From an uncultured Anaerolineae bacterium (GTDB lineage: Bacteria > Chloroflexota > Anaerolineae > Aggregatilineales > Phototrophicaceae), in the NCBI GenBank assembly GCA_937995825.1, contig CALKJO010000016.1, forward strand, positions 206,370 to 270,369: a DNA stretch of 64,000 nucleotides, written 5' to 3'. Positions 43,746 to 47,393 of this stretch are shown here, one piece after another. The number at the start of each line of letters is the position of its first letter. The stretch's first letter is position 1. Under the pieces are notes generated by a model that ran no database searches, was not told the DNA's origin, and saw only the letters and a program-made list of their open reading frames with translations. Both the position numbers and the translations under genes were made by a program.

Positions 43746-44297
43746 CTAAACATGCTGGGTTGGCGGCGGGAATTTCTCTCGGTAGAGATTTAGCCCGAAC
43801 TGAATGGCTTCTTTTGCCTCTTTTGCGCCTGTCCACCCTTGCGACTGGACGGTTGCCCCCTGAAGCTGCTTGTAGACCAAGAAGAAGTGCTCAACTTCTT
43901 TGGGGAAATGCTTCGGCAGGTCGCTGATGTCGTGATAATCCTCAAATTCGGGATCGGTCGCGGGGACAGCGAGGATTTTGTCATCATTGTGACCCTTGTC
44001 GATCATGCGCAGCATCCCCAGCGGACGCGCGATGATTACGCAGCCGGGAAACGTCGGCTCATTCATCATGACCAGCACATCGAGCGGGTCTTCATCCCCG
44101 TAATACGACTGCGGGATGAAGCCGTAGTCCCCGGGATAGTGAAGCGGGCTGTATAATACGCGGTCGAGCTTGATCACGCCCGCCGACTTGCTGTATTCAT
44201 ATTTATTTCGGCTGCCTTTGGGAACTTCGATCACGGCGTAGATTTCATCTGGCGGTTTCGGTCCCGCCGACAGGTTGTGCCATAGATGCAGGGTCAT
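43746..44297 (-). CDS. ppa: Inorganic pyrophosphatase (family I)
   Basis: 183 residues. The active-site signatures are all visible: VIEVPKGSRNKYEYSKSAGVIKLDRVLYSPLHYPGDYGFIPQSYYGDEDPLDVLVM, including the metal-binding DExDPLD block, and DKGHNDDKILAVPATDPEF later. It hydrolyses pyrophosphate from biosynthetic reactions in the cytoplasm. Single gene with its own terminator. Confidence 0.95.
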   Translation of the reverse strand: MTLHLWHNLSAGPKPPDEIYAVIEVPKGSRNKYEYSKSAGVIKLDRVLYSPLHYPGDYGFIPQSYYGDEDPLDVLVMMNEPTFPGCVIIARPLGMLRMIDKGHNDDKILAVPATDPEFEDYHDISDLPKHFPKEVEHFFLVYKQLQGATVQSQGWTGAKEAKEAIQFGLNLYREKFPPPTQHV

Positions 44298-44534: not shown

Positions 44535-44618
44535 GTTTGCGCAATTTTACGTTTCGAATATGCTGAAAAACGAGCTGTACTTGCATTCTCTTAAACTTCT
44601 TCACAAAGCGAGGGAGCT

Positions 44619-47393
44619 ATGTTGACCGCAAGAGGGGGTTCTCATACCAGGCTGGGCATACTGCTCACCGCAGTCATGCTCGCCGTATTTCTGGGGGCGT
44701 CTTTACGCCCATCGCAGACCGCGCAGGCGCTGACTCACACGCAGACGGGGGACATCACGATCCCAAGCAGCGGCGCGGCAGACCCGTATCCATCCAGCGT
44801 GTTCGTCTAGGGCGAGCCGGGCTTGATCACCGACATTAACGTCAGGCTGGTTGGGCTGAGCCACACCTGGCCCGATGACCTCGACATCCTGTTGGAGCAT
44901 GAGCCGAGCGGCATCGCGGTGATGATCATGTCCGACGCCTGCGGCAGCACTGATCTGAACAGCGCGACCATCCTGTTTGACGACGAAGCGCCATATGGTC
45001 CTGTGCCGGACACCACCGGCTGTTCCAGTGTCGTGAATGCTTTCTCGCATCATCAGCCGACCAACTATGAGATAGGCGATGTGCTGCCCCCGTCTGCGCC
45101 GGCGTCTTATTCATCTGCGCTGTCCGCCTTTGATGGGCTGACCCCCAACGGCTTGTGGCGCTTGTGGGTCTACGATGATGTGTCTGGCTTCAGTGGTCTG
45201 CTGGATGAATGGCGGCTGGAGATCACGGCTGGCACATCGGCGATTGTCATCCCTGGCTCCACTACAGCTGCCGGGAACGCCAGCCCGTATCCGTACAACA
45301 TCAACATCAGCGGTCGGACGGGCTTGATCACCGATGTCAACGTCACCGTCAGCCGCCTGAGCCACACCCGGCCCGCTGACATCGACATGCTGCTGGTGTC
45401 GCCTGATGGCGACTCGGTCATCCTGATGGCGGACGCGTGCGGCAGCACTGACATCCGCTCGATCACGCTCACCTTCGACCAGTCGGCGGCGAACACGCTG
45501 CCCAACTCGAGCTGCTCCACGGGGACATTCAGACCGACCAGCGGGACGTTCAACGGCGGTGCGCCTGCTCCGGCGGGTCCGTATGGGACATCGCTCAATG
45601 ACTTCAACGGCGAGAACCCGAACGGGACGTGGCAGGTCTACATTTACGATGATAACGGCGGCGATACGGGCTTCATCATCGATGGAATCACGCTGACCAT
45701 CACGACCGGGGCATCCGCGATCACCATCCCATCCAGCGGGAACGCGACGCCGTATGCATACGACATCGTTGTCACCGGATTAGGCGGGGTAGTCGAAGAT
45801 GTCAATGTGACGGTCAGCGGCTTGACGCACTCGTTCCCCGAGGACATTGACATGCTGCTGGTCAGCCCGAACGGCATCCCGGTCATGCTGATGTCCGATG
45901 CCTGCGGCGGTAACCGCATCACCAACCGGACGTTCGTCTTCAACGATGAGACTATTGCGGTCGGTCCTGCCGGCAATCTGCCGACGAGCAACTGCACCGG
46001 AGGCACATTCCGCCCGACCAACTACAGCAACGATGAGGTGATGCCCGCGCCTGCGCCGGGTCTGCCGTATCACGACCGCCTGTCGATCTTCGACGGCATC
46101 AACCCCAACGGCACGTGGAGACTGTATGTGGTCGATGACTTTGCCGGCGATTCGGGCTTCATCACCAATGTCACGCTTTCCATCAGCACCACCCCCAGTC
46201 TGCCCAACATCGTCAATAACGGTGCGTTCAGCAGCGGTAAGACGAGCTGGAACGAGTTCGGCGATGGATCGGGCAGCGTGGTCAGCGGCATCTACCAGTT
46301 CCAGCGCACCGGCGCAAGCGCTTTCACCGTGTTCCAGAACACCACCACCAATTGGCCCATCGACCGTCCGTTCGAGCTGCGCTTCGACGCTGGCAACTCC
46401 GGCTCCGACAGCAAGCGGCTGACCGTGCTGATCTGGGATGCCGCGTTCGGACGCCAGCGCGCGTGTTCGTTCTGGCTCGCGCCCAACCAGCCGCTCACAA
46501 CCTACCAGATTCTGGGCGACTCGGCAGCAGCCTGGAACAGTGTGACGGTTCACTTCTACGCCAGCACGCAAAGCACCAACGGCTTCTACCTGCTGGACAA
46601 TGTCGTCCTGCGCAGCCGCCCCGACCTGCCGACCGACGCCACCACCACCGTGCTGGATACGCTTTGCATCGACCCCAAAGCGCCGGCGGTGCCGACAGGG
46701 GCTGACTCCGCCAACCTGCTCAACAACGCCGGCTTCGCGACGCTGCCCGGCGGGAATGCCAACGAGACCTGGGGCGCGTTTGGCAACATTGCAGTCAACC
46801 TGTTCAGCGGCTATCTGCGGATGCAGCAGACCGGAACGCCGGTCGGCTCGATTGTCCAGAACACCAATGTGCCGTTCCCGGCAAACAGCGTGATCGAGTT
46901 CCAGGTTGACTTGGGCAACAGCCATCCGAGCAACTGGCAGCGCGCCACCATCCTGCTGCACAATGAGAACTTCAACGGCTTGCAGTTCTGCACCTTCTGG
47001 CTCGCGCCGAATTCAGCCCTGCAAACCTACACGATGCGCACGTTTGCCAACTCGAACTGGAACGCCGACGGCATCAGCGTCTCGATCTATCCCTCGACCA
47101 ACTCGCAGTGGATTTTGGTCGATAACACCATCCTGCGCCGCCGCTACATCAAGGTGATCGGGACGGGCTGCTACGAACCCGGCTCGACTCAACCCGCAAT
47201 GGACGATCTGGCGTGGATGCAGGAACTCGAAGCGGCGCAGCAGATGCTGCCGGCGCTGCTGCCGACGCAGGTGCCGTATGCGCCGCCCGGCGCGCCGATG
47301 GAAATTCCGCTGCTCGTCGTCCCAGCGGACTACCAGCCGGAAGCCGAATCCAGCGCCGAAGGCTCGATCACCGAAGGCTCGGCGGGCGAATAA
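44619..47393 (+). CDS. Secreted protein with three P-domains, interrupted by an in-frame TAG
   Basis: One frame runs from ATG 44619 (GAGGGAG upstream) to 47393, but codon 64 (44808-44810) is TAG. The first 63 residues hold a signal peptide (RLGILLTAVMLAVFLGASL) and the start of a repeat. After the stop the repeat continues without a shift: GLITDINVRLVGLSHTWPDDLDILLE. Three repeats are homologous to the proprotein-convertase P-domain, at about residues 42-205, 207-365 and 367-525. Each has ITIPSSG..YPYxI, GLIxDVNVxVxxLSHxxPxDIDMLLVSP, MSDACG and NPNGTWxLYVxDD. In repeats two and three the stop position is Ser or Gly-adjacent Thr. Two carbohydrate-binding-like modules (starting SLPNIVNNGAFSSG and NLLNNAGFATLPGG) and a Pro/Glu tail follow. 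Confidence 0.75.

Follow-up and report, generated by a model that had tools for sequence, protein, structure and literature searches.

The window, a 64,000-nucleotide stretch (positions 206,370–270,369) of contig CALKJO010000016.1 from an uncultured Anaerolineae bacterium, contains a long reading frame interrupted by a single in-frame amber codon. Its ATG at 44619 and its TAA at 47391–47393 lie in one frame of the forward strand with TAG 44808–44810 between them; 63 codons precede the TAG, and 860 codons follow it before the TAA. Because the remaining two forward frames contain 25 and 26 stops, respectively, over the same 924 codons, the open downstream part cannot be attributed to chance. No further damage was found in it, and the third-position GC content is 0.73 before the TAG and 0.82 after it. 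A ribosome-binding-like stretch precedes the ATG, and the N-terminal leader resembles a signal peptide (both judged by eye), in agreement with the initial annotation of this DNA, which had placed both upstream of the stop.

Table 1. Features of the interrupted gene and its neighbour in the window, and positions of the other module genes of the genome (contig:position).
Feature	Position	Strand	Basis
Divergent neighbour, called inorganic pyrophosphatase	43746–44297	-	putative name
Ribosome-binding-like stretch GAGGGAG, purine-rich	44610–44616	+	by eye
63 codons before the TAG: signal-peptide-like leader, opening strands of P-domain repeat 1	44619–44807	+	translation, strands from model
In-frame TAG stop codon	44808–44810	+	translation
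Open part downstream of TAG, 860 codons	44811–47390	+	translation
P-domain repeat 1, broken by TAG	44739–45224	+	repeat alignment; structure model, pLDDT 92.7; fold search
P-domain repeat 2	45225–45704	+	Pfam PF01483, E 2.8e-22; repeat alignment
P-domain repeat 3	45705–46193	+	repeat alignment
C-terminal module copy 1 with CBM-like jelly-roll fold	46203–46688	+	module alignment, model, fold search
C-terminal module copy 2	46701–47258	+	module alignment
C-terminal tail with EGSITE, common to paralogues	47259–47390	+	sequence comparison
Other module genes	C2:19252, C2:127198, C2:265424, C2:550473, C3:29050, C3:159580, C3:182737		
Other module genes (continued)	C3:185193, C3:327920, C3:344800, C5:119914, C9:242036, C14:54028, C14:56650		

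The divergent neighbour, which we take to be an inorganic pyrophosphatase, has relatives mostly in Chloroflexota metagenome assemblies; the nearest is 81% identical (isolate TC_22), followed by Anaerolineae bins. Among 85 pyrophosphatase loci (5 plus 80, some of the 5 probably being the same contigs as in the 80), which extend at most 4 kb sideways and many of them less, a P-domain protein was found beside the pyrophosphatase only at the locus of the window itself. The sole other match in the neighbour search, L116, turned out to be a tRNA locus of the same genome. Conserved gene order therefore gave no evidence on orthology. Matches to the interrupted gene occur in 19 of 61 genomes, the best being 46% identical over residues 11–526; homologues are at most about 56% identical and cover parts of the protein only, and no close homologue was found among these genomes beyond the own genome. 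A genome-contig search with the downstream part returned no relative, in a set that may omit records very near the window. The genome encodes a paralogue, C2:19252, which is 44% identical and has an open frame. Because the gene lacks close homologues outside its own genome and is absent beside the other pyrophosphatase loci, it looks accessory by these comparisons.

Translated through the TAG, the gene encodes a leader, three P-domain repeats (44739–46193), two C-terminal modules and a tail. The Pfam P-domain model scores 79 bits (cut-off 21) and matches best in repeat 2, at residues 175–288 of the 860-codon downstream part; the assignment of repeats 1 and 3 comes from the repeat alignment. 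No PDB chain matched the profile of the repeat alignment by sequence at E 0.001. A structure model of repeat 1, built on this alignment, has a high mean pLDDT, and the first 27 PDB rows of a Foldseek search with it are furin, Kex2 and an Aeromonas sobria serine protease, with a best E of 1.2e-3 (none at or below 0.001) and TM scores on the query of 0.41–0.51. The likeness to the P-domain of proprotein convertases thus consists in a repeat 2 above the Pfam cut-off and a repeat 1 model that matches furin/Kex2-type folds, whereas the present gene carries three P-domains in tandem and no protease domain detectable by Pfam. A literature search combining the proprotein convertase P-domain with Chloroflexi found nothing, and the titles listed by a broader search on the P-domain included nothing on the interrupted protein.

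The TAG corresponds to residue 24 of the repeat 1 model, directly after the strand of residues 19–23 and before that of residues 29–42. Both halves are therefore predicted to be needed for one fold. In this model, termination at codon 64 would leave no more of the beta-sandwich than two short strands behind the leader, and a start after the TAG would leave a leaderless protein with a broken first domain.

The initial annotation had held that both sides of the TAG share one frame, that the repeat runs through it, and that the matching position in the other repeats is an ordinary small residue. Translation and repeat alignment agree, with Ser in repeat 2 and Thr in repeat 3. Across 21 other repeats the column reads Ser in 12, Thr in four, Ala in two, and Gln, Asp and Arg in one each. 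These are the two other repeats of the interrupted gene, two of the paralogue and 17 from other genomes, including some of the same genus. The 19 repeats from outside the gene were picked from 23 tblastn hits; the four omitted were L018, which falls short of the column, and three weak hits (L081 and both of L083) with Thr, Val and Ser, respectively. None of the 22 hits that cover the column has a stop there. The stop therefore stands where homologues have a sense codon, as in a pseudogene, and the conservation of TAG in relatives that would mark amber recoding was seen in 0 of 21 repeats.

Sense codons in 21 of 21 compared repeats would also suit the main rival to a real mutation, namely a consensus or assembly base error, in which case the living strain would carry a sense codon there and make the protein intact. 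The sequence comes from a 3.49 Mb draft in 24 contigs with 93.7% completeness and 1.9% contamination, which would leave room for such an error, and the undamaged 860 codons fit either an error or partial readthrough. We consider a base error possible but rather unlikely, in part on the survey of in-frame stops described below.

A further explanation is that the locus makes two products, a short secreted peptide of 63 codons and a protein restarted at TTG 44823, the first in-frame start-like codon after the TAG, or at GTG 44919 or ATG 44922. Restart after a short reading frame occurs in bacteria, and AGGG lies about 10 bases 5′ of the TTG (by eye). None of the three codons is followed by a signal peptide, in line with the earlier remark that the downstream part has no good start, and repeat 1 of the restarted protein would also be missing its opening strands. 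Moreover, where the start of a homologous first repeat can be read (e.g. L086, L087 and L088), leader and domain share one frame, and no repeat among the 21 is split at the TAG site. We regard this arrangement as extremely improbable.

The decoding machinery of the genome bears on functional readthrough or recoding, by which an amino acid would be put in at UAG often enough to give full-length protein. The Rfam tRNA model detected 41 tRNA genes in the whole draft, and ARAGORN assigned an anticodon to each; none of the 41 has CUA, in a genome that is 93.7% complete. ARAGORN gave one extra tRNA-Asp(atc) that is absent from the Rfam list. No tRNA-Ile(GAT) was found, so the draft probably lacks some tRNA genes, among which there may be a suppressor tRNA. 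The pyrrolysyl-tRNA synthetase PylS scored 25 bits (cut-off 178); neither a PylS above its cut-off nor a CUA tRNA, the pair expected for pyrrolysine or other amber recoding, was thus found in the draft. Release factor 1 (RF1) is present (521 bits, cut-off 423). In a genome sample of 427,402 bases, made up of the window plus 20 stretches, the longest non-overlapping ORFs of at least 200 aa number 266; of these, 145 end in TGA, 73 in TAA and 48 in TAG. Neither the loss of RF1 nor the disuse of TAG as a terminator, which would mark code reassignment, is therefore seen, and the look at TAG use and suppressor tRNAs that the initial annotation had advised showed nothing special among these ORFs and the 41 tRNA genes. 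The RNA fold around the TAG (121 bases, z −0.45) is no better than shuffled sequences.

In favour of readthrough, the two flanks of the TAG are both open and similar in third-position GC content, and Belinky et al. 2021 (PMC7918605) argue that in-frame stops are widespread in bacterial genes and in many cases subject to purifying selection. Dedicated decoding of the TAG is nevertheless not supported, because no CUA anticodon was found, PylS is below its cut-off, RF1 is present, TAG is an ordinary terminator and is unconserved at the site, and the RNA is plain. Functional readthrough is accordingly improbable. The nonsense mutation and the assembly error proposed at the outset fit all the evidence, whereas readthrough, also proposed there, is not supported in the form of a dedicated system.

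The C-terminal module, a jelly-roll of about 160 residues (46203–47390 in the window), gives 24 matches in 15 genes of the genome. Its fold matches include CBM4/16/22/61-like ones. No Pfam or NCBIfam family was found for it, and NCBIfam likewise had no match for the downstream part as a whole. The module often occurs in two copies, in many genes followed by a common tail ending in EGSxTE or similar. The N-termini joined to it are very diverse, and we provisionally call them subtilase-like, nuclease, Ig-like and beta-propeller-like. The short gene C3:29050 (L071:9054–9740, minus strand) consists of a signal-peptide-like leader, one module copy and the tail, and the gene upstream of it is presumably gyrB. 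Within the order, 14 of the 121 genomes, its own counted, have the module, which may serve in surface binding or sorting and be specific to the lineage.

An internal stop is known in two of these 15 genes, the P-domain gene with its TAG and a nuclease gene on contig C5 with a TGA; at least four (C14:54028, C3:327920, C2:550473 and C3:182737) were read without reaching the start, and an earlier stop is possible in them. In the C5 gene (L078:11556, minus strand), which carries the same C-terminal module, a lone in-frame TGA lies inside the Exo_endo_phos match of an exported protein. Four congeners (G001, G005, G006 and G014) have an open frame at the site, with Cys at the column in two and Pro and Ser in the others, which are aligned with gaps nearby. 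The Cys in two relatives prompted us to consider selenocysteine. SelB (194 bits, cut-off 242) and tRNA-Sec (45 bits, cut-off 47) were both below threshold, and the sub-threshold tRNA-Sec matches fall on ordinary tRNA genes. Therefore, the TGA is taken as another nonsense codon or an error. A genome-wide pattern of stops across the family was considered and rejected: six other matches to the family in the genome contain a single stop, in each case the terminal stop of the gene itself, since the alignment overran the gene end by a few residues; the stop in the match at C3:185193, at codon 155 of 160, was likewise taken as terminal.

The C5 gene was not a random find, because its stretch had been chosen for holding a gene of the same family. 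It was recovered in a survey by coding score of the same 427,402 bases for same-frame stops with coding-like flanks, which gave 30 junctions at a threshold that missed the TAG of the window itself (its upstream part scored 0.06). Eight junctions with a distant next ATG or GTG were read, and Pfam was run on five of these and on the gene of the window. Two of the five had no match, two had the stop between different domains or genes, and one, the C5 gene, had it inside a domain. A second lone in-frame stop in the genome would be compatible with infrequent base errors. On the other hand, a stop inside one domain match was found only in the C5 gene among the six Pfam-tested spans; such stops thus do not look common, which speaks against base error. 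The TGA in the nuclease domain of a second exported gene favours a nonsense allele at the TAG.

Taken together, these observations suggest that the TAG is probably an ordinary nonsense allele that arose recently in an exported gene which is dispensable and has a paralogue. We infer a real base change as opposed to an error, its recent date and the loss of the protein. The ancestral gene would have encoded an exported protein in which a signal peptide was followed by three P-domain repeats of beta-sandwich type, a pair of CBM-like jelly-roll modules and a tail, and a recent single-codon change would have produced TAG at codon 64. Ribosomes would then terminate there by RF1 and release a 63-residue piece, and the full protein would be lost or nearly lost in this strain. 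We propose that the time since the change has been too short for the downstream frame to decay, and that the loss would be tolerated because the gene is accessory and an intact paralogue is present. In Belinky et al. 2021 (PMC7918605), nonsense-interrupted bacterial genes resemble the present one in having a single in-frame stop, open flanks and an otherwise intact gene; the stops treated there are common to at least two species, whereas the stop described here is known from one draft genome.

The initial annotation had also raised phase variation, which found no counterpart in the sequence: neither a repeat tract nor an inversion was seen by eye at the TAG codon. We know of no switching device that works by single-codon substitution. 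A further idea is that the population keeps single-codon stop alleles as reversible off states in several module-bearing exported proteins, with some product arising by low-level readthrough, and that this nonsense polymorphism tunes the cell surface. The TAG of the P-domain gene and the TGA of the C5 nuclease gene would be such alleles, and we consider the idea very improbable.

For the reading of such loci in general, an open frame on either side of a stop is not in itself evidence of recoding. Recoding can be tested cheaply by looking at the matching column in homologues, at the tRNA genes and at release factor 1. Confirmation of both the TAG and the TGA of the C5 gene by reads would show that point mutations are removing or switching accessory exported proteins in this lineage.
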